From assembly GCF_030123245.1 (NCBI RefSeq), contig NZ_CP126101.1:3222501-3286500 (forward strand): a stretch of DNA of 64,000 bases, written 5' to 3'. Origin of the DNA: Lysinibacillus pakistanensis (GTDB lineage Bacteria; Bacillota; Bacilli; Bacillales_A; Planococcaceae). The notes beneath the pieces are model-generated. The model made no database searches, was not told where the DNA came from, and was given only the letters and a program-made list of their open reading frames with translations. Every line of letters begins with the position of its first letter. Position 1 is the first letter of the stretch. Positions 7,031 through 30,330 of this stretch are shown here, one piece after another. The translations under genes and the position numbers were made by a program.

Positions 7031-8046
7031 TACACGTCACCTCCGTCCACTGGTGCATACACGTATTTCAAAGCATGTTCCGGTGTGGCATACGGTGCAG
7101 CCTCTGCATAATCCGTAGCCTCATTTACTTCAGCCATCACACGTTTCTCGATTTCTGAACGTAGTTTCTCTGACATTACACCCATATCCATAAGATACTT
7201 TTCAAATAGTAAAATAGGATCCTTAGCCTTTCCTTCTGCTATATCTTCAGCAGTACGGTATTGACGATCATCATCATCGGAAGAGTGAGCCGTTAGACGG
7301 TATGTCACAGTTTCTATTAAACTTGGACCTTCACCATTACGCGCACGGTCTGCAGCCTCTTTCACCACTTTATAGACTTGTAATGGACATTTGCCATCAA
7401 CCGTAACACCCGGCATACCGTAGCCAATGCCACGATCCGATACTTTCGCACAGCCTAATTGACGTTCAACAGGCACAGAAATTGCATAGTGATTATTTTC
7501 TACCATTATAATGACTGGAAGCTTATGAACACCTGCAAAATTCGCGCCTTCATGGAAATCCCCTTGGTTAGAAGAACCTTCACCAAGCGTAACGAAAGAA
7601 ACAAAATCTTCTTTCTGTAGCCGTCCTGCAAGTGCAACGCCCACTGCATGTGGAACTTGCGTTGTAACAGGAGATGATCCCGTTAAAATACGATTTTTCT
7701 TTTGACCAAAATGACCTGGCATTTGACGACCACCAGAGTTTGGATCTTCCGCTTTGGCAAATGCAGACAGCATCAATTCTCTTGGTGTCATACCAAAATG
7801 TAAAACAACGCCCATATCACGATAATATGGTGCAATATAATCCTTCTCTTTATCGAGTGCAAAGGCTGCTCCAACTTGTGCTGCCTCTTGTCCCTGACAA
7901 GAAATAACAAAGGGAATTTTACCTGAACGGTTTAATAACCACATACGCTCATCTAATCTTCTTGCCATTAACATCGTTTCGAACATTGCAAGGACATCTT
8001 CATTTGATAAACCTAAATCTTCATGCTTGATTTGAACATCTTGCAT
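7030..8046 (-). CDS. bkdAA: branched-chain 2-oxoacid dehydrogenase E1 alpha
   Basis: I place the start at the ATG at 8046 (MQDVQIKHEDL), which has AAAGGGGTG just upstream. An upstream in-frame extension to 8100 has no ribosome site. The product is 338 residues with the thiamine diphosphate motif beginning GEGSSNQGDFHEG and ending near VENNHYAIS, and with the HSSDDD phosphorylation-loop segment. It forms E1 with the beta subunit encoded next. The 339-base gap upstream of this start is filled by a dispersed repeat that separates it from the E3 gene. Confidence 0.95.
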   Translation of the reverse strand: MQDVQIKHEDLGLSNEDVLAMFETMLMARRLDERMWLLNRSGKIPFVISCQGQEAAQVGAAFALDKEKDYIAPYYRDMGVVLHFGMTPRELMLSAFAKAEDPNSGGRQMPGHFGQKKNRILTGSSPVTTQVPHAVGVALAGRLQKEDFVSFVTLGEGSSNQGDFHEGANFAGVHKLPVIIMVENNHYAISVPVERQLGCAKVSDRGIGYGMPGVTVDGKCPLQVYKVVKEAADRARNGEGPSLIETVTYRLTAHSSDDDDRQYRTAEDIAEGKAKDPILLFEKYLMDMGVMSEKLRSEIEKRVMAEVNEATDYAEAAPYATPEHALKYVYAPVDGGDV

Positions 8047-15279: not shown

Positions 15280-15864
15280 TTAAAAGAATGAAACGTTTTT
15301 AATGCTTTGTTTAATTCGTTCGTCAGTCATTCCGATGTAACGAAGCGTTGTCTTTTGCGAACTATGATTAAAGATTTCCATTAGCGTTGCTATGTCGTTA
15401 GTGGCGTTGTAATAAGTGTACCCGAATGTTTTGCGCATAGTGTGAGAACCAACCGAATGATTGCCGATTTGATCGCCAGCATCAGTTATAATGCGGTAAG
15501 CTTGCGTCGTGCTGATATGTCCGTCGCCCTTGCGTGATGGGAATATGTACGTTGTTCCTGGCTGCAATGTATCGATATAGTCTGCGATAGCTACCATTAG
15601 CTGATCGAGGTGGACAGTGCGTTCCTTCTTCGTCTTACCTTCCCGTATCTTAAACGATGACTTACCCTTTACTTGTTCGACTCTAAGCGCAACTAAGTCT
15701 CCGCAGCGTAAGCCGGTAGATATGCCGAGCTTGAATAGTAGCTGATTGCGAAGTCCGTATTCCTTCGACATGCCTAAAGCTTCTAACATCTCGCTTATTT
15801 CTTCTTTCGATTTTAACGGCTGCACATCGATTAACATGCCTTTTTTCTCGTTATGATTAGCCAT
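15280..15864 (-). CDS. short tyrosine recombinase (phage integrase family)
   Basis: 194 residues, only the catalytic domain plus a short N-terminal arm. The active-site set is visible: Arg in TGLRCGD, Lys in GKTKKERT, HTMRKTFG (H-x-x-R), NHSS and the nucleophile Tyr in TLRYIG. It lacks the N-terminal core-binding domain of the 323-residue integrase at the other end of the element. Short recombinases of this kind occur in Bacillus prophages; the substrate here is unknown. Two similar sequence blocks with inverted ends lie directly upstream (15880-15996) and may be its sites. Confidence 0.85.
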   Translation of the reverse strand: MANHNEKKGMLIDVQPLKSKEEISEMLEALGMSKEYGLRNQLLFKLGISTGLRCGDLVALRVEQVKGKSSFKIREGKTKKERTVHLDQLMVAIADYIDTLQPGTTYIFPSRKGDGHISTTQAYRIITDAGDQIGNHSVGSHTMRKTFGYTYYNATNDIATLMEIFNHSSQKTTLRYIGMTDERIKQSIKNVSFF

Positions 15865-23385: not shown

Positions 23386-24588
23386 TTAGATTTCGTATCG
23401 TGCCCATTTTTCGAGTAGTTCTCGCATACGCCTAGCAGGCATATATAGATTGATAGATTCGCCGTTGCGGATGCGTGAGCGCCAAACCCATTGAAGCAAG
23501 TCTGATACTGCTAGCTTATCCTCACTAACAGTTATGTCGTGATCTTGAAAGAATGATTTCTCGATAGGATGCATGTAACGGTTGTAGCAGTACATTAATG
23601 TTGAACGGTCTGCATATTCGTTAGACGCGCGGGCATTACACGCTAGAAAACCCTTTGTATAACCCTTACCTTTTAAATCCGTTTGGTAACTTTTAATAGT
23701 CGTCCATAAAACTTCGTCAGTCTTTGCTTTGATGATATTTCGGACATATGACTGCATACTAGAACGGATTGCAGCCATTTCTCCGTCGCTCCGACGGCTC
23801 AACCAACCTTTAGAAAACGCGGTCGGAACACTGCCATGATCGTTGTGCGGTCCGTCATAAAGACTAATTAATGAACGAAGATGCTCGCGTCCTTCCTGGC
23901 GCTTGTCATACTCGATTAATTGACCGTCTTTGACTGCTTTTAAATCGTAAGGAATCGAATACAATTCGAAATAATATTTCATTAATTGCGCCTCAAATAG
24001 ATATGTCAAAACGTATACACTAGTAAAAGTTTCGAAGATTGAAGGCGGAAACGCATAAATTAAGTATTTGTCACGGTGATAAAAAAGCGTTCCTGCTTGT
24101 GCTAGTAGCTTGATACGGTCGAATACTCCGTACTCATATTCAACCTCGCTCGCAGTCCAAACGACTTTGTTGTTCTCCATTTTTACCAAGCCTTTTTCGA
24201 GTAGGAGTCGCATATCGGACGGTGAAACGCCTGCCTTATCTATCACGCTTATAACCTCGTCCAAAATCAACGTGTAGTTATTCTCACGCAACAAGTAACG
24301 CAATTCATCGTCTGCCATTTCAAAAAGGCTATGCGTTGCTACGATGTCTCTACCGTCCTCAATCAATCGCTTTAGGCTCGTTAATTTACTACCACCTTCT
24401 ACGTTATTCGTTGGTTGAACAAATTCGCGACCTGTTACCGAACTAATCACACGATCGACCTCTGCTAAGAACGGCGTGACATAAATGAAACGCTCCAACG
24501 GACTTGCACCGTTAATGTAGTCAATAGCATAAGTCGTCTTTCCTGCTCCCATCACCGAATCAATTACCGTTACGTTTTTCATCTCCAT
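23386..24588 (-). CDS. P-loop helicase-like / origin-binding-type protein
   Basis: 400 residues from the ATG at 24588 (MEMKNVTVIDSVMGAGKTT), with GGAGG seven bases upstream. Walker A is GAGKTT at residues 14-19, and a Walker B-like motif LILDEV lies near residue 108. It resembles phage and plasmid helicase-like replication proteins that begin directly with the P-loop. Next to a repeat-bearing non-coding stretch (24637-24990) and a ParB-like gene, it is the best candidate replication protein of the element. Confidence 0.6.
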   Translation of the reverse strand: MEMKNVTVIDSVMGAGKTTYAIDYINGASPLERFIYVTPFLAEVDRVISSVTGREFVQPTNNVEGGSKLTSLKRLIEDGRDIVATHSLFEMADDELRYLLRENNYTLILDEVISVIDKAGVSPSDMRLLLEKGLVKMENNKVVWTASEVEYEYGVFDRIKLLAQAGTLFYHRDKYLIYAFPPSIFETFTSVYVLTYLFEAQLMKYYFELYSIPYDLKAVKDGQLIEYDKRQEGREHLRSLISLYDGPHNDHGSVPTAFSKGWLSRRSDGEMAAIRSSMQSYVRNIIKAKTDEVLWTTIKSYQTDLKGKGYTKGFLACNARASNEYADRSTLMYCYNRYMHPIEKSFFQDHDITVSEDKLAVSDLLQWVWRSRIRNGESINLYMPARRMRELLEKWARYEI

Positions 24589-24636
24589 TTGAAAACCTCC
24601 GATTTGTAGAATTATTGTTGTAGACGACGACCCCAC

Positions 24637-24990
24637 CGCCTCAATGCTTAAGCACTTTTACACATCACTCCTTTAAGGGCAAAAATGAAATACATGAATA
24701 ATTAACGATAAAACCGAAATTACAAGAATATAAAATACATAGAATTAGCGTTAAGCACTTTTATATTGATATAAGTGGTTATCAACAGATATCATTTTTG
24801 CGGTTAGCAAAAATAGAAGTATGAGCGTTAGCGAATGCTTCTTAAAGAACTAACCTCTACGGCTCATTTCATTCGCCTATCGTTGCCAGTAAACTGTCAT
24901 CGATGATAAGCACTTTTTATATACCTCTCTTTAAGGACGACACCTCACAAACGTTGATATGACACGGTTTCTAACGGTCAATAAGCACTT
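24637..24990. repeat. TAAGCACTT repeats in a non-coding stretch, candidate origin
   Basis: About 340 bases without a gene. The nonamer TAAGCACTT occurs at 24649, 24752, 24907 and 24982, each followed by T/C-T-T-A-rich DNA; at 24752 and 24982 it pairs with a downstream AAGTG to form a hairpin. A hairpin with AGCACTT/AAGTGCT also lies at 25297-25318. Repeats beside a P-loop replication-type gene suggest an origin or operators. Confidence 0.45.
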
Positions 24991-25199
24991 CTTATTTCGG
25001 ATAAGTGTTTCGGGTGAGGTCGTCGAGAACTTTTAGCGAGAATTTCATCGATAAGATGTGATCGCTCAAATATAAAGACAAGTTTTCCCCGTCTATGTCG
25101 ACTCGGCTCCATTTTGATTAAGGCCTGTCCTGCATCGATGATTTCCTGTGCTACTTGGCGAGAATGGATTACGATAAATTTTTCGATTTTCACTTGCAT
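24978..25199 (-). CDS. small unknown protein, DUF5659-like
   Basis: 73 residues: an N-terminal half with a sheet-helix-sheet look (KFIVIHSRQVAQEIIDAGQA), then GKLVFIFERS and a basic tail. The pattern of a small domain ending in a VF-F strand recalls the short DUF5659 phage proteins; that comparison is from memory and weak. Its 3' end overlaps the last TAAGCACTT repeat. Confidence 0.5.
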   Translation of the reverse strand: MQVKIEKFIVIHSRQVAQEIIDAGQALIKMEPSRHRRGKLVFIFERSHLIDEILAKSSRRPHPKHLSEIRSAY

Positions 25200-25288
25200 T
25201 GCTGTTCATCCTCCTGTATAATGACATTATAAATAGATATCTGATAAAATAGGTTAAGTCTGCATATAAACAGACATACCAACTTTTA

Positions 25289-26125
25289 TTATATCGTCAG
25301 CACTTGCGTAATGTAAAGTGCTTTTTTGCATTTTTTTAAAATTATTTCCTCGACTTCTTTTAGCTTGCCTGTGTTATTAAGAACGGTTGCTGTTGCGCTT
25401 AGTGCGGCTTTGCGTAAACTGACTGCCGTATTATGTGGCGATGTCATCGGCAAGGATTCGTCAAACTGTGCTTGTCCTAACTCGCCTTTAGATATATTTT
25501 TAACGATTTGGGACGAACGCTCGTCTAATTCCTCTTGTCGTTCTTCTTCTGTTGTTGGTGGAGCTTCGTCTAGTTTCATTTGCGCATGTGCTTTTCCGAT
25601 TGAATATGAGCCGTCGAATACTTTGTCATATAAGTCGGGACGGTTGCGCTTTACTGAAATTAAATTCCCCATAGAACCTTTGCTAATTGAAGCTTGTTCG
25701 GCTAACATTTTATGTGTATCTAACTTTTCACATTTTTGGGAAAGGTCTGTTCGTTTACCTTGCCCACTACGAAACTCGTATTCATGCAAATTTAACACCA
25801 AGCAAGCGCGTTGCCCCTTCGTCAATGCATCTCGCAATAGTTTAGTGGCCGTTATATATGACGCTATTTCATTTTCGGGAATATCCACAAAAACGACGTT
25901 CACATTTTCGATTCCTAATTCTTTAGCAGCTTTTAGGCGATGCCTACCGTCGATAACCTTAAATCCTTTTGTTGCGAATAATGGTTGCAAAATTCCGTTC
26001 CTTTTAATTTCAGTTAGAAACTTCGCCCAATCTTTCGTTTTCATGTCCGGTGAAAATTGCGATTGCAGACTGTGCTCAGACAATTGCGATACTGATACCT
26101 CGACAACTTCGTTTACTTGCGTCAT
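25289..26125 (-). CDS. ParB/Srx-domain protein
   Basis: 278 residues from the ATG at 26125, ten bases after AAGGGAG (an ATG three codons earlier is too close to it). The N-terminal domain has the signature VIDGRHRLKAAKELG of the ParB/sulfiredoxin fold, followed by helical segments with a helix-turn-helix-like MLAEQASISKGSMGNLISVK. No ParA partner is seen. It could be a partition-type DNA-binding protein or a regulator of replication. Confidence 0.8.
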   Translation of the reverse strand: MTQVNEVVEVSVSQLSEHSLQSQFSPDMKTKDWAKFLTEIKRNGILQPLFATKGFKVIDGRHRLKAAKELGIENVNVVFVDIPENEIASYITATKLLRDALTKGQRACLVLNLHEYEFRSGQGKRTDLSQKCEKLDTHKMLAEQASISKGSMGNLISVKRNRPDLYDKVFDGSYSIGKAHAQMKLDEAPPTTEEERQEELDERSSQIVKNISKGELGQAQFDESLPMTSPHNTAVSLRKAALSATATVLNNTGKLKEVEEIILKKCKKALYITQVLTI

Positions 26126-26306
26126 TCCGTTCATTCTCCCTTCGTTTTAGACGTTTTCTACATCAGATGATAAATACGTCGACTTGCGATTTAAAACCGT
26201 TTCTAGCCACGTTTATAAAGGCGAAATGAAGGCGCTATGCTTCGTGTGTCTCCTTAAGTAAAACCGTTCCAAAAAAAATTGTTATTATTTAACTGTTGCT
26301 GTTTGG

Positions 26307-26312
26307 TATAAT
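26307..26312 (+). promoter_or_regulatory. -10 element before the 157-aa gene
   Basis: TATAAT at 26307-26312 with a weak TTATTT 17 bases upstream, and GAGGTGA at 26330. The region 26126-26357 holds no other feature I could support. Confidence 0.45.
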
Positions 26313-26357
26313 AAATGAAAAATTTGTTAGAGGTGACAGAGCACGGATACTTTACTA

Positions 26358-26831
26358 TTGTTTTATAAAATTCAAAATCATAATGTTAAGGCTGTCGATT
26401 ATATTGATTGGGCCTTTAACATGTTGGAAAGTAATTGTTCATCCTTTTCTATAAATATCTTATCTTCACTTAGAGAACCACTTAATATTTTTGAGGTAGA
26501 GGATTACTTTAGTAGAGCACTAAATGAGATAGAGTTGCAAGAACCCTCTTATGAAGAGTGTGCTAAATATTACATTCTACATTTATCTAAAAAAATACTA
26601 CAAGATGGAACTAATGTTTTTGATATAGTCTATGATATAAATACGGTTGCTCGAGAAATTAATTACCCAGATGACCTTGATGAATGGCTCTACATAAGTG
26701 ACATGATAGATGAATTTCATTATGGTGGAAATGACTCTAATTTAACAAAGGAAGAAGTAATTGCGGTCATTATGAATGAAGCAAAGAATCAGTTGAAAAA
26801 TAATAGGAAAACTAGGTGTTGGCGCACCTAG
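26358..26831 (+). CDS. unknown acidic protein, possible cargo
   Basis: 157 residues, strongly acidic and helical (EVEDYFSRALNEIELQEPSY), with A+T-rich codons unlike the neighbouring element genes. It reads against them. The 5' end is uncertain: the frame opens after a TGA at 26334, the only start is TTG at 26358, and the GAGGTGA site is 21 bases away. The tone of the sequence recalls small immunity-type proteins but I do not recognise it. The stop lies inside a perfect hairpin. Confidence 0.5.
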   Translation: MFYKIQNHNVKAVDYIDWAFNMLESNCSSFSINILSSLREPLNIFEVEDYFSRALNEIELQEPSYEECAKYYILHLSKKILQDGTNVFDIVYDINTVAREINYPDDLDEWLYISDMIDEFHYGGNDSNLTKEEVIAVIMNEAKNQLKNNRKTRCWRT

Positions 26832-26964
26832 TTTTCTATGACCATTGTTGGCGCAATGATTCTTCATATTCATTTGCTAAAGCCAGTTGGCGCTGACCCT
26901 AGCGTATTTATTGCCCGTAATGTTGGCGCAATACGAACGGCTCAACTCGTTGGCGCGAGTATGA
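26807..26964. ncRNA. array of five hairpins with invariant TTGGCG loop
   Basis: The octamer GTTGGCGC occurs five times in 139 bases (26818, 26847, 26886, 26922, 26949). Each copy is the tip of a hairpin: loop TTGGCG closed by G-C, with a different complementary stem each time. Stems: GAAAACTAGGTG/CACCTAGTTTTC; CATTG/CAATG; CAG/CTG with an outer GCTA/TAGC; CGTAaTG/CAaTACG with an outer GCC/GGC; ACTCG/CGAGT with an outer TCA/TGA. It lies between two convergent genes, in the 3' untranslated region of either transcript. On the minus strand the loop reads CGCCAA, and the first hairpin would act as terminator. Whether it works as RNA or DNA is not known. Confidence 0.6.
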
Positions 26965-26976
26965 TTTAGTTTAAGC

Positions 26977-27228
26977 CTATACTTTCGGTGCTTGAGCAAG
27001 AATCGTTAGCAATTCGATAGGTTCGCATGTGTCCAATTCAAAAAAGATAGATTGTGCTTCTTCGTTCCACTTAAATAAAATCTCATTATCGCCAATGTAC
27101 AATATTGCGTCATCTTCATATCCTGGCTGTTTAAAAACTTCTAGATATACACCGTCAATAATCTGAGTTCTTTCAACTATATAAGAATATCCTGGCTCAA
27201 CTTCGAAAATTTGCATTTGAGTAATCAT
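26977..27228 (-). CDS. unknown small acidic protein
   Basis: 83 residues, beta-rich and acidic (VEPGYSYIVERTQIIDGVYL ...). GGGAGG is a clear ribosome site. It has a near-consensus promoter with an operator-like palindrome over it (27264-27292), and its transcript would continue into the hairpin array. Not recognised. Confidence 0.65.
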   Translation of the reverse strand: MITQMQIFEVEPGYSYIVERTQIIDGVYLEVFKQPGYEDDAILYIGDNEILFKWNEEAQSIFFELDTCEPIELLTILAQAPKV

Positions 27229-27263
27229 GGTATAACCTCCCGTTGTTTTTACTTATTAGTGTA

Positions 27264-27317
27264 AATTTAAACGAATACGTTTAATATGTCAACGGTTTTA
27301 AACGAAAAAGTTTAAAA
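27264..27317. promoter_or_regulatory. divergent control region with two palindromes
   Basis: Minus-strand promoter TTGACA (27287-27292), 17-base spacer, TAAATT (27264-27269). The palindrome TTAAACG-AATA-CGTTTAA (27267-27284) overlaps the spacer and -10. A second palindrome, TTTTAAAC-GAAAAA-GTTTAAAA, occupies 27296-27317. They share the TTTAAAC half-site, as expected for operators of one regulator, most simply the HTH-like protein encoded divergently. Confidence 0.65.
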
Positions 27318-27361
27318 GTATTTACAAACGTGTTATTGTAGAGTAAAAAGGGGTGTTTTAT

Positions 27362-27592
27362 ATGAATATTAAAAACGAAATTAAGAGCTATTTAGCAGCT
27401 ACTGGCATTACTATGACTGAACTTGTTGAGAGATTAAACAAAGATTTACCAGAGAACAAAAAGACGTCAGTACAAAACTTGTCTAATAAACTTAGTCGTG
27501 GATCCTTACGCTATGATGAGGCGCAACAAATAGCTATTGCAATTGGGAAGCATATAGAATGGGTAGACAACAAAAAAGACGACGGCCAATAA
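27362..27592 (+). CDS. small HTH-like regulator (DUF6471-like)
   Basis: 76 residues from the ATG at 27362, eight bases after AAAGGGG; a GTG three codons earlier overlaps that site. MNIKNEIKSYLAATGITMTE, followed by a stretch ending VQNLSNKLSRGSLRYDEAQ, is a helix-turn-helix-like fold of the DUF6471 kind. It is divergent from the 83-residue gene, with two shared palindromes between them, so it is a good candidate for the local repressor. Confidence 0.65.
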   Translation: MNIKNEIKSYLAATGITMTELVERLNKDLPENKKTSVQNLSNKLSRGSLRYDEAQQIAIAIGKHIEWVDNKKDDGQ

Positions 27593-27607
27593 CGGCTATC
27601 GTCTTTT
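27572..27607. terminator. bidirectional terminator
   Basis: Stem AAGACGACGGCC / GGCTATCGTCTT (mostly paired) flanked by A and T runs, directly after the HTH-like gene. Confidence 0.75.
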
Positions 27608-27668
27608 CTTATTTTCACTATCGTATAAACTATGCACTTCTCGCTCTAATTTGCTTCAAGTTTTTTAA

Positions 27669-27761
27669 TTATTTATTATCTTTCAGACAAATCTTTAGTA
27701 TCTCAAAAATAATCATACAAACACAAGTTACAACACTGATAATTAATGTAGCTAGTTCCAC
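27669..27761 (-). CDS. possible 30-aa membrane peptide (type I toxin-like)
   Basis: GTG start at 27761 with AGGTGA seven bases upstream. The product MELATLIISVVTCVCMIIFE plus a Lys-rich tail is one membrane helix. Length and make-up resemble type I toxin peptides of Bacillus prophages (such as BsrE), but no antisense RNA was identified. It is the only frame downstream of the cobalamin riboswitch on that strand. Confidence 0.4.
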   Translation of the reverse strand: MELATLIISVVTCVCMIIFEILKICLKDNK

Positions 27762-27910
27762 TGTATTATCACCTACCAATTATGAAAGTTTAAGAATAAA
27801 ACCTCCAATAAAATCAGCAAGCTAGACTTCGAGCACAAAGAAAAAACGAAAAAAAATAAACCTCGAAACTAGCTAAACACTAAAAGTCTTTATTAGAGAA
27901 AATTAGTGTT

Positions 27911-28072
27911 TAGGCAGGTCTCCTGGCTTAGCTTCTTCCGCTGATTACCTTCCCGTACTCAAAGTACAGTGGATATTAATCATTGTCAGCTTTACAGTTG
28001 CGGGGACAGCGTCGGAATAGTACCGAACTTCCCTTTTAAACTACATATAGTAGTACCAAAACATCAAATAAG
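27911..28072 (-). promoter_or_regulatory. cobalamin riboswitch
   Basis: Read on the minus strand it shows the conserved blocks of the adenosylcobalamin riboswitch in order: AAAGGGAA, the GCTGTCCCCGCAACTGTAA box, CCACTG, CGGGAAGG, and the closing AAGCCAGGAGACCTGCC. It is followed by an 11-bp stem CTAAACACTAA/TTAGTGTTTAG and T-rich DNA, a possible expression platform. No B12 transport or synthesis gene follows; only a 30-residue peptide frame lies downstream. Confidence 0.88.
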
Positions 28073-28090
28073 TTATTTTATTCTATATAT

Positions 28091-28119
28091 AGAATAACGT
28101 TTTATGAAAAATAAGTCAA
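28091..28119 (-). promoter_or_regulatory. promoter of the riboswitch transcript
   Basis: TTGACT (28114-28119), 17-base spacer, TATTCT (28091-28096), read on the minus strand about 20 bases before the riboswitch. The palindrome ATTCTATATATAGAAT overlaps the -10. Confidence 0.7.
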
Positions 28120-28160
28120 TTATTAATAGGATTTTTATTGATAAATTTAAAGCTTCCTAG

Positions 28161-28197
28161 AAAAAGCACATGCCGACTAATTGGCTGCGCTCTTTTT
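28161..28197 (-). terminator. terminator after the DUF4259 gene
   Basis: Minus-strand hairpin GAGCGCAGCC ... GGCATGTGCT followed by TTTTTC. Confidence 0.7.
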
Positions 28198-28245
28198 ATT
28201 TTGTTCAGGGATAGAGAGAAATGTTATAGGGGTTGGGGGGTTTTG

Positions 28246-28677
28246 CTATCCAAGGCTGTGAAGCCGTGCCCCCAACTTGGCAATTAGCTGCTGCACATGT
28301 GCCCGCCATTCGTCCCAGCTTGACGATTCTCGCCACAGCTCAGCCAGATCTCCCTCACAGTCTCCCTCAATATCAGCCCAAATCACGTTCAAATGCTTCA
28401 GCAAAGACCCAAGCGCGGCTCGATCTGCTGTGAACGCCCGTACTTGTGTCAAGGAGTGCTCGTCCTCATGATCGTAGTCCAGGCTGCCATTCTCCTGGAA
28501 CTCGATATACAGCTCTGCGAGGGCAATTACTGTTTCGTCATAAAGGAAATCGTCTTTTTGAAACTTCGCCATCAATTCGCCCAAATCCAACGTGTCACGA
28601 GGAAGCAAGTCCTCGATCGCTGTCAGTATATCCAACCCTTCATCGCTTTCCAATGCTTTGATTCCCCATGCTCCCAT
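28246..28677 (-). CDS. DUF4259 family protein
   Basis: 143 residues from the ATG at 28677 (MGAWGIKALESDEGLDIL), eight bases after GGGAGG; an upstream extension to 28731 has no ribosome site. MGAWG-x-x-A-x-x-x-D-x-G is the hallmark opening of DUF4259 proteins. Function unknown. The gene is clearly richer in G+C than its surroundings, which suggests separate acquisition as cargo. Confidence 0.75.
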   Translation of the reverse strand: MGAWGIKALESDEGLDILTAIEDLLPRDTLDLGELMAKFQKDDFLYDETVIALAELYIEFQENGSLDYDHEDEHSLTQVRAFTADRAALGSLLKHLNVIWADIEGDCEGDLAELWRESSSWDEWRAHVQQLIAKLGARLHSLG

Positions 28678-28741
28678 TCGGCTTCCTCCCTGTTTGCGTC
28701 TTTCTTTTTTCATTGTAAGGTGAGTATCCAATGCTTGTCAA

Positions 28742-29233
28742 ACAGACTGATATCTAACCCAATGGGTATAAGGCTTTTAATAGTTTTACGCTTGACAACC
28801 GTACCCACTTGCTAGCAGAATGGCTGCTTGCTCCAGGAAATCGGCGCAGAAGTCGTTACCTACTATCGCAAGAAACGTTAGAAACGAATCAAGCGACAAT
28901 AAGTAACGACCGCATTTGCTAGCGTCAGGTGACGTCCGAGGTTATCTCGTATGCTCCTGTTAAATCGGGATATCTCTATCCGCATATTCCCGACGTTTTA
29001 CTGTCCATGTCGATCACAGAATATGCTTACCGGCACCGTAATGCCCCAGTAAACCTAACCACGCCTTTAATGGCCGCGCTCGCCAATTCGTCGCAACCGT
29101 AACAGGAAACGGCTTGTGTTGCGATATATTCCGTAGTTTGCGTTGTGACGGACAGCACTGACCAGGTTAGATTATCGACGAATTAGTGGGCTACCTCGTC
29201 GCTACTGCTAAAAAAGGGTGCATTTAACAGGAG
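28742..29233. other. non-coding or decayed stretch
   Basis: About 490 bases with no frame I can support. The base composition (CG-rich words like GCGTC and CGACG) resembles the rest of the element. Open stretches in the plus strand (about 28930-29100) are interrupted by stops, so a decayed gene is possible. Confidence 0.4.
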
Positions 29234-29262
29234 TTGCATCATCGAATTTTTTTCGATATAAT
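29234..29262 (+). promoter_or_regulatory. strong promoter of a small RNA
   Basis: TTGCAT (29234-29239), 17-base spacer, perfect TATAAT (29257-29262). Confidence 0.7.
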
Positions 29263-29268
29263 GAACCC

Positions 29269-29354
29269 TAAGTAAACGCAATTGCTGGCAGGCAATTTTT
29301 AGCGTAGATATTAAGTTGTAAAGTCGTTAGTGCGCGAACACTAGCGGCTTTTTT
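29269..29354 (+). ncRNA. candidate small RNA of about 86 nt
   Basis: A consensus-like promoter and a strong terminator enclose about 86 bases with no open frame. Hairpin 1 is AATTGC-TGGCAG-GCAATT (29280-29297). The terminator is GTCGTTAGTG-CGCGAA-CACTAGCGGC plus six T (29323-29354). It is convergent with the integrase gene, ending five bases from the integrase stop codon. Target unknown. Confidence 0.6.
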
Positions 29355-29358
29355 CTGT

Positions 29359-30330
29359 CTAAATATCTAAATTTTCAAGTGGACTATGCTGTCGATACTT
29401 CTTCATCACTTCCTTATCAGCGAAATCCAAATAAATTTGAGCAGTAATATCAACGTTGGCATGTCCCAGCAAACGAGATAACGTTGCTAAATCACCGCCA
29501 TTAACTAAGTAACGTTTCGCAAAATTATTACGAAGCAGATGAGGCGTTACTTGTAAACCAACGTCTTTACTCCGCAGTCTAAATGAACGTTCTACTCCCT
29601 CAATTCGTAATTTGGATCCTCTATTCGTTGGAAAAACATAAGCACTATCTGAATAACGATCCTTGTACGATAACCATGATCTAAGGTGTTTGCGCGTCTT
29701 TTCCGAGTAATAAACGAATCGTTGCTTGCTGTTCTTAGTCTTACGTAGTAACAACGCATTCCCTCGCAAATCTATATCAGATACAACAACTTCCAACAAT
29801 TCTCCTATCCTTGCTCCAGTATCAAAGATTAATCGAGCTATTACCCAATCACGGTATTGATCGAATTTCGTAACATCGAAAGAACGGAAAAACTGTTTTA
29901 ATTCATTATCTTCTAGCATTACCTTGATTTTTCGCTCCGGTTTGACATTCTTTAAATCCTTCAAAGGATTGCTGCGGATAAGTTGTTCCGAATATAAGTG
30001 CGAATAAAATGCTTTTATGTTACGTACATAATTCGCAATTGTCGTTTTGCTTACTGGCTTGCCAAAATCGCCTCGTCGTTCTGGGTAGTTTACAGGCGTT
30101 TCTGCAGCACTTATTTCGAACTTTCCTCTTTCTTCGATAGAACGAATATAAGCGCGTATATGCTCTACCTTTACGCTTTTAACGTCATCTATTTCAAAGT
30201 TATCCAAAAGATACCTTGCGAATAGTTTAAGCGTTTGCTCATACGATTTTAGCGTTTTAGGCGAAAGGCCTTTTGCGGAACAATCCAACATATAACGGTC
30301 AATTTCGATTAAAAACGGACTTATAGACAT
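29359..30330 (-). CDS. int: tyrosine integrase of the spo0A-integrated element
   Basis: 323 residues. An N-terminal SAM-like core-binding domain (about 5-115) and a catalytic domain with the full active site: TGARIGE (Arg), KTKNSKQR (Lys), HLLRNNFA (H-x-x-R), LGHAN, and the nucleophile Tyr in AQIYLDF. It sits 140 bases from the right repeat and reads away from spo0A in the same direction. Its ATG directly follows the T run of the spo0A terminator copy, and its ribosome site GAGGGGG lies in that hairpin, so read-through from spo0A could drive it. It very probably catalyses integration and excision at the spo0A 3' end. Confidence 0.9.
   Translation of the reverse strand: MSISPFLIEIDRYMLDCSAKGLSPKTLKSYEQTLKLFARYLLDNFEIDDVKSVKVEHIRAYIRSIEERGKFEISAAETPVNYPERRGDFGKPVSKTTIANYVRNIKAFYSHLYSEQLIRSNPLKDLKNVKPERKIKVMLEDNELKQFFRSFDVTKFDQYRDWVIARLIFDTGARIGELLEVVVSDIDLRGNALLLRKTKNSKQRFVYYSEKTRKHLRSWLSYKDRYSDSAYVFPTNRGSKLRIEGVERSFRLRSKDVGLQVTPHLLRNNFAKRYLVNGGDLATLSRLLGHANVDITAQIYLDFADKEVMKKYRQHSPLENLDI

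Follow-up and report, generated by a model that had tools for sequence, protein, structure and literature searches.

Many hairpins showing one motif are a feature of the CsrB and CsrC RNAs, and the hairpins of mini-ykkC RNAs are arranged in tandem. A single RNA of the CsrB/CsrC kind is reported to bind several copies of one protein (PMC5027483), and conserved terminal loops of the form ACGR are described for mini-ykkC (guanidine-II) RNA (PMC2864571). Targets of the ANTAR proteins EutV, NasR and AmiR are hairpins with hexanucleotide loops located at a terminator, in which loop residues are conserved, with A needed as the first base and G as the fourth, and compensatory changes in the stems are tolerated (PMC3369931). 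In phage P22, the boxB loop is given as GACAA with a looped-out C (PMC12550061). A noncoding RNA is the most abundant transcript reported for PLE satellites (PMC7567579). Here, we describe a conserved array of covarying G[CGCCAA]C hairpins, structured when read as the minus strand and found at corresponding positions of related mobile elements.

In the 64-kb window (the whole stretch of DNA that was analyzed), the octamer GTTGGCGC is found five times, always on the plus strand, with starts at 26818, 26847, 26886, 26922 and 26949. These copies span 26818-26956, i.e., 139 bases, and none lies elsewhere in the window. A count of five per 64 kb is also reached in 2 of 100 whole-window shuffles. 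The 5.25-Mb genome itself contains 59 copies on both strands, among which the window array is the sole cluster; hence five copies within 139 bases are far beyond chance. As the first-pass annotation had described, every copy caps an inverted repeat and has a G-C closing pair. On the plus strand (G.T allowed, maximum of 12), hairpins 1-5 show 12, 4, 2, 1 and 4 contiguous pairs past the closing pair. On the minus strand, stem lengths are given with the closing pair counted and G.U allowed. Hairpin 5 (26945..26960, 5-bp stem) comes first in the predicted transcript, followed by hairpin 4 (26916..26935), the weakest of the five, whose stem has a T.T mismatch, which is unformed in the minimum free energy (MFE) fold and which is missing from a listing requiring five contiguous pairs. 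Then come hairpin 3 (26876..26903), with an 11-bp stem only if the minus strand is read (A.C on the plus strand becoming G.U), and hairpin 2 (26841..26860, 7-bp stem), all four bearing a CGCCAA loop. The last, hairpin 1 (26807..26836), has a 12-bp stem with a G[CGCCAA]C tip, overlaps the final codons of a plus-strand ORF (26358-26831) and is a predicted intrinsic terminator according to the terminator scan and the MFE fold. Folding of the array on the minus strand gave a z of -4.85 (0 of 200 shuffles as low), the plus-strand fold being weaker (z of -2.64, 3 of 200 shuffles as low).

The strand under selection was deduced from wobble pairs, counted in 50 distinct hairpins that are not independent, many being orthologous. 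Forty-six of them were collected by the exact octamer, whatever their stem pairing; the remaining four, with one octamer mismatch and 4/4 inner pairs required, supply 1 of the 25 A.C cells. Read on the plus strand, the 200 cells of the four inner stem positions comprise 166 Watson-Crick pairs, 25 A.C or C.A, no G.T or T.G and 9 others. Further out on the stem, the A.C to G.T ratio is 22:3 at positions 5-6, 11:11 at positions 7-8 and 15:39 at positions 9-12. Since this ratio changes outward, the inner-stem bias is not compositional. The A.C cells, although not independent, are spread over many hairpins and positions. An A.C on the plus strand is a G.U on the minus strand, so that the 25:0 polarity indicates the minus strand as the molecule under selection. 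Judged from sequence, the structured strand is the minus strand and the loop is CGCCAA closed by G-C, instead of the TTGGCG loop read in the first-pass annotation. In the cross-genus loci, the hairpin detector accepted G.T and not A.C, and polarity there is no evidence.

Covariation was assessed on an alignment, A1, of 40 distinct 22-mers from array hairpins. Of 320 stem cells, 84.1% are paired, versus 53.6 +- 2.2% after shuffling and 27-48% in slid controls, and 117 cells are changed on both sides versus 41 +- 6 in shuffles. Two of the five covariation measures are not clearly above the 500 shuffles, namely double-changed pairs (7 versus 6.8 shuffled, reached in 426/500) and pair types (29 versus 27 shuffled, reached in 88/500). 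Part of the signal is diversity among different hairpins of one array, as pointed out in the first-pass annotation. Orthologous stems vary too, as illustrated by the last hairpin, in which an outer pair reads G-C in L388, G.U in L389 and, in the window, A-U. The loop variants CACCAA, CCCCAA, CGTCAA and CGCAAA occur once each in the 40 rows, and a seven-base loop, CTGCCAA, was seen by eye in L385 and L389. The first-pass annotation had raised the case of homologues keeping the octamer and losing the stems; on checking, loop and stems are kept together, with few loop variants. Its proposal of selection on single-strand structure is supported by covariation and wobble polarity. Duplex-bound iterons, or mere chance, could be suggested by repeats lying in tandem close to a ParB-like gene and to possibly replicative genes. 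This explanation is hardly credible in view of the covariation, the 25:0 wobble polarity and the spacings of 29, 39, 36 and 27 between copies, which are not helically phased, and it was rejected as conflicting with the sequence.

Among the roles listed in the first-pass annotation, those of protein-binding RNA and of single-stranded DNA are possible. Hairpins of single-stranded DNA, serving as replication or packaging signals in place of an RNA, would tolerate G.T wobble as well, so that polarity alone is compatible with them, and the orientation of the array in the element is fixed. We nevertheless consider them highly improbable, given that the array usually comes right after the end of a gene on its strand and is usually followed by a terminator.

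Related arrays were sought with a two-copy octamer pattern in 151 genomes, then in 261 genomes of the family. The pattern was present in 33/261 genomes, of which 13 were accepted as carrying arrays, the other 20 being judged by the stem filter only, a strict filter that also dropped the true arrays L007 and L008. Homologous arrays amount to 14 loci, window included, in 13 genomes, and 13 of the 14 lie in mobile elements. Nine array genomes, including the window's own, belong to its genus, and four (G045, G049, G229, G232) to three other genera. Copy number varies between arrays while the loop is kept; exact octamers in array orientation number just two in each of L384, L385 and L394. In L385, the loop of the terminal hairpin is TTGGCG, the complement of its other loops, as if the terminal palindrome had been flipped.

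The genes around the arrays were compared through single-linkage clusters of ORFs, in flanks of about 10 kb per side. No cluster is common to all 14 loci, the nearest to it being the integrase (12 loci) and the tape measure (11), followed by the 83-aa-like protein (10). A tblastn search with the window proteins found matches in 11 of the 13 fetched loci, all but L383 and L384. L383 nonetheless has ORF clusters in common with other loci. L384 (genome G002) has none among those listed; its array adjoins likely accC and accB genes, judged by protein length and order, and the locus is probably a remnant of an element. In 12/14 loci, the closest ORF upstream on the same strand is of a family that recurs among them, i.e., the 83-aa-like family in the window, L385, L386 and L389, cl4 in L383, L387 and L390, cl18 in L388, L392, L394 and L395, and cl55 in L393. 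It is unclustered in L391 and in L384, where it overlaps the array. As this family differs among loci, the array is conserved where its gene neighbor is exchanged.

The element of the window is about 15 kb long (15.3-30.3 kb). Its genes encode a truncated integrase, a TerS-like protein, a tape measure, HNH, HTH, YonV-related, ParB-like and repressor-like proteins, and an integrase. The last of these, a tyrosine integrase gene (29359..30330, minus strand), adjoins spo0A, and the truncated integrase, of 194 aa and reduced to the catalytic domain (15280-15864, minus strand), lies at the far end. A 416-aa protein (23386-24636, minus strand) is related to SPbeta YonV with 41.5% identity, and its cluster is found in 5/14 loci. 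A PHROG scan of the 19 proteins of 15.3-30.3 kb gave a tape-measure (tail) match and a TerS-like match, and no capsid, portal or large terminase. In six of the clusters that hold homologues of the 83-aa protein, the longest contig measures 15.9-17.5 kb, which is compatible with a free element of such a length. Going by this gene content, the element may be a phage satellite, for which a tape-measure gene is unusual; it may instead be a decayed prophage. Besides, related elements adjoin spo0A in L388, L393 and L394, and tmRNA in L391 and L395. In L386, a 52-aa stretch within the element locus (7682-7837) is identical to part of Spo0A and is perhaps a duplicated gene end at an attachment site. 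A strong cobalamin riboswitch (120 bits, 27896-28075, minus strand) lies between the repressor-like and DUF4259 genes; no gene evidently linked to cobalamin follows it on that strand.

The array lies directly 3' of the 83-aa protein gene with its operator-like repeats, in line with the first-pass annotation. This gene (26977..27228, minus strand) has its stop codon 16 nt before hairpin 5. Its product has no Pfam or PHROG match and no match among phage records; the organism-named entries among its 28 homologues are hypothetical proteins of Lysinibacillus. A predicted promoter, TTGACA-17-TAAATT (27264..27292, minus strand), with 10/12 matches, is the best of 10 sites in the region, in a scan that alone proves nothing since shuffles yield 8.5 +- 2.8 sites. 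Two near-identical, operator-like 19-bp repeats (27266-27284 and 27297-27315) stand 31 bp apart over it. Divergent from the 83-aa gene, a 79-aa HTH repressor-like protein (27353..27592, plus strand) matches Pfam DUF6471 and, weakly, a PHROG of transcriptional repressors. From this arrangement we infer that the array is the 3' untranslated end of the element's repressor-controlled early transcript, the gene it carries being the 83-aa one or an analogue. In the window, promoter, 83-aa gene, array and a terminator formed by the last hairpin would together yield a single early RNA of roughly 460 nt. The predicted terminator falls at 26807, the transcript end put forward in the first-pass annotation.

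Such an order, namely a first early gene, hairpins, a terminator and same-strand genes, is like that of lambda nutR/tR1. It suggests control in cis, the array being a nut- or ANTAR-like site, set between the first early gene and those for replication, at which a loop-bound factor sets termination versus read-through, an account that is possible if somewhat unlikely. A terminator-like hairpin is present in the array, or within about 30 nt of it, in 12/14 loci. In seven of the 14 (L385-L389, L392 and the window), the terminator is itself a hairpin with a CGCCAA or TTGGCG loop. It lies 119 nt from the array in L384, and the terminator scan found none behind the array in L394; the terminator hairpins with this loop and the lone array of L394 both suit a switch in cis. 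An opposite-strand ORF of at least 80 aa within 900 bp downstream of the array, in 8/14 loci, is awkward for read-through. A second recurrent loop was also observed in terminators right behind arrays, with TTGCAG in L390 and L395, TTGCTG in L391 and TTGCCG in L393.

Outside the arrays, the loop was followed from the 83-aa protein, from the hairpins and from the octamer. Homologues of the 83-aa protein occur in 22/261 genomes, 10 of which are array genomes. The homologue is followed by an array mixing CGGCAA and GTTGGCGA loops on one strand in L428 and L430, by three CGCCAA hairpins in L433, by a GTTGGCGA hairpin in L420 and by a TTGGCG hairpin in L418. No hairpin of the array kind follows it in L422, L423, L432 or L435. 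L418 and L420, both with hairpins of the TTGGCG type, and L422 belong to the window's genus, which implies that the CGCCAA array is not fixed there. Likewise, homologues of array-adjacent genes in L422/L440 (one genome), L423, L432 and L435 have no such hairpin behind them, nor does the viral contig L443, found through one array-adjacent gene. A separate hairpin with a CGCGAA loop, 3' of the integrase gene (29325..29346, plus strand), is a weak match to the model (15.7 bits, E of 0.71). Its counterparts in relatives have CGTCAA in L387, L388, L391 and L394, TTGTCG in L383 and other loops elsewhere.

Single-hairpin model matches outside arrays lay inside ORFs for 18/18 fetched in a first set (15 from the window's own genus), and 9/20 fetched in a second set had no open frame above 100 aa; L445, L446 and L454 of the latter are long hairpins. 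In phage-like loci of other genera (L450, L451, L452, L454), single CGCCAA or TTGGCG hairpins stand between early-type genes, by eye HTH, Rha-like, RecT-like and SbcC-like, a setting that suits a cis role better. In phage records, the array was matched by two entries only, each over a single piece of 33 bases (E of 0.3), and searches against plasmids gave no match. Two exact stem-loop patterns had 0 matches in viral contigs. In octamer scans (two or three copies) of viral and other genome contigs, the non-family rows left after the stem filter, among the matches listed, are regular repeats by eye.

Strong hairpins at a terminator might also be explained as a 3'-end module that shields the early mRNA from decay and ends it, the loop being a duplicated stable cap. 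The same loop is indeed found in a few hairpins of chromosomal-looking loci of other genera (L445 and L446, gene names by eye). We regard such a module as quite doubtful. A generic cap should drift to other stable loops as stems change, and 0 of 98 terminator-like hairpins of sampled genome stretches have a CGNCAA or TTGNCG loop, whereas 6 of 91 do among those of the 13 element loci that were fetched. This census covered 400 kb of evenly chosen stretches from five genomes, with 12 of 20 from the window's own genome and prophages left in. A general host terminator loop was rejected on its result, and the contrast between the two samples suggests that the loop is mainly a trait of these elements.

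Exposed C-rich hexaloops would also suit a small regulatory RNA that acts by base pairing of its loops to UUGGCG sites of its targets. LhrC and RNAIII are examples of sRNAs in which several loops repeat the same seed. We find this very doubtful, since TTGGCG near 359 ORF starts of the 14 loci was seen 2 times against 7.6 expected, a shortfall that is not specific, six other words tested there being below expectation too. The idea of a sponge for an RNA carrying UUGGCG, offered in the first-pass annotation, finds no support in these counts.

The account that we tentatively favor, ahead of termination or antitermination, is that the array serves as a multivalent platform or a sponge and that the factor binding its loops is probably encoded by the host. 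A partner of this kind is suggested by the conserved loop, the free stems, the repeats and the early expression that is predicted. Each loop would be a docking site for one loop-recognizing factor, tandem copies would allow its multivalent binding, and stems, in which nothing but pairing counts, would diverge freely. Once induced, the transcript would then sequester the factor, following a CsrB-like logic, or gather it on its own 3' end. No flank gene accompanies all 14 arrays, and the factor is therefore most likely a host protein. Sequestration accounts for copy number, while termination or antitermination accounts for position. The sponge is challenged by the missing CGCCAA array near the same-genus 83-aa homologues (L418, L420, L422), by the CGGCAA or GTTGGCGA loops of other genera, by the complementary terminal loop of L385, by the low exact-octamer counts of L384, L385 and L394 and by the two covariation measures not clearly above shuffles. 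A bolder version, which we hold to be unlikely, is a new satellite RNA class in which an induction-controlled multivalent array captures, via its CGNCAA hexaloops, an RNA-binding factor of the host or of a helper phage that is not known to recognize such loops, as a takeover device. If the array does bind one factor, it is a ready bait, with short hairpins, exchangeable stems and a loop that by itself should confer specificity. A pull-down with loop mutants could then name a new RNA-binding protein or a new antitermination route of Gram-positive mobile elements. It would also show how RNA lets an element of 15 kb, poor in genes, achieve regulation.

Compared with known systems, the array is undescribed within the open-licence PMC literature and Rfam 15. 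No description of such an array, octamer included, turned up among the papers listed in searches of that literature. In Rfam 15, positions 24000-30000 of the window at E <= 1 matched the cobalamin riboswitch only, and eight related loci at gathering score matched tmRNA twice, the array being unmatched in both searches. The statement of the first-pass annotation that no described family has this design is too strong, as some of its features are also those of ANTAR targets, boxB and CsrB-type RNAs. The PLE noncoding RNAs belong to another host and element, and no hairpin array is described for them in the portion of the source cited here (PMC7567579). Mini-ykkC is a leader element of host genes, with a loop other than that of the array. 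The likeness to ANTAR targets, as these are portrayed in the cited work, lies in small hexaloop hairpins at a terminator with a conserved loop and stems free to covary. However, the array loop has C1 and C4 in place of A1 and G4 (position 1 is C in 40/40 rows of A1 and position 4 is never G), which speaks against an ANTAR-like site in cis and led us to reject ANTAR membership. In ANTAR targets the terminator is an alternative fold, whereas here it is separate or one of the hairpins, and in MFE folds, the only folds considered, it coexists with other hairpins. The boxB elements of P22, phi21 and lambda, with GNRA-like loops, are phage hairpins recognized via the loop, as is proposed for the array hairpins, and the reported P22 GACAA (PMC12550061) fits the GNCAA part of CGNCAA, a resemblance that favors control in cis. 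The array differs by its hexaloop with an extra 5' C, its tandem copies and its differing stems. A boxA-like word (GCTCTT, TGTTCTTT or a longer form) occurs in 0/14 array regions, a weak test with a chance expectation of only 0.7, and a small Arg-rich ORF is found in 2/14 loci, the two unrelated to each other and none in the window. Both results weigh against a nut-like site, and membership in the lambda N/boxB system was rejected on them, there being no consistent N-like ORF. With respect to CsrB and CsrC, the GGA motif that marks a CsrA-binding sponge is replaced in the array by a CGCCAA loop free of GGA, and the array belongs to the predicted 3' UTR of a gene on a mobile element.
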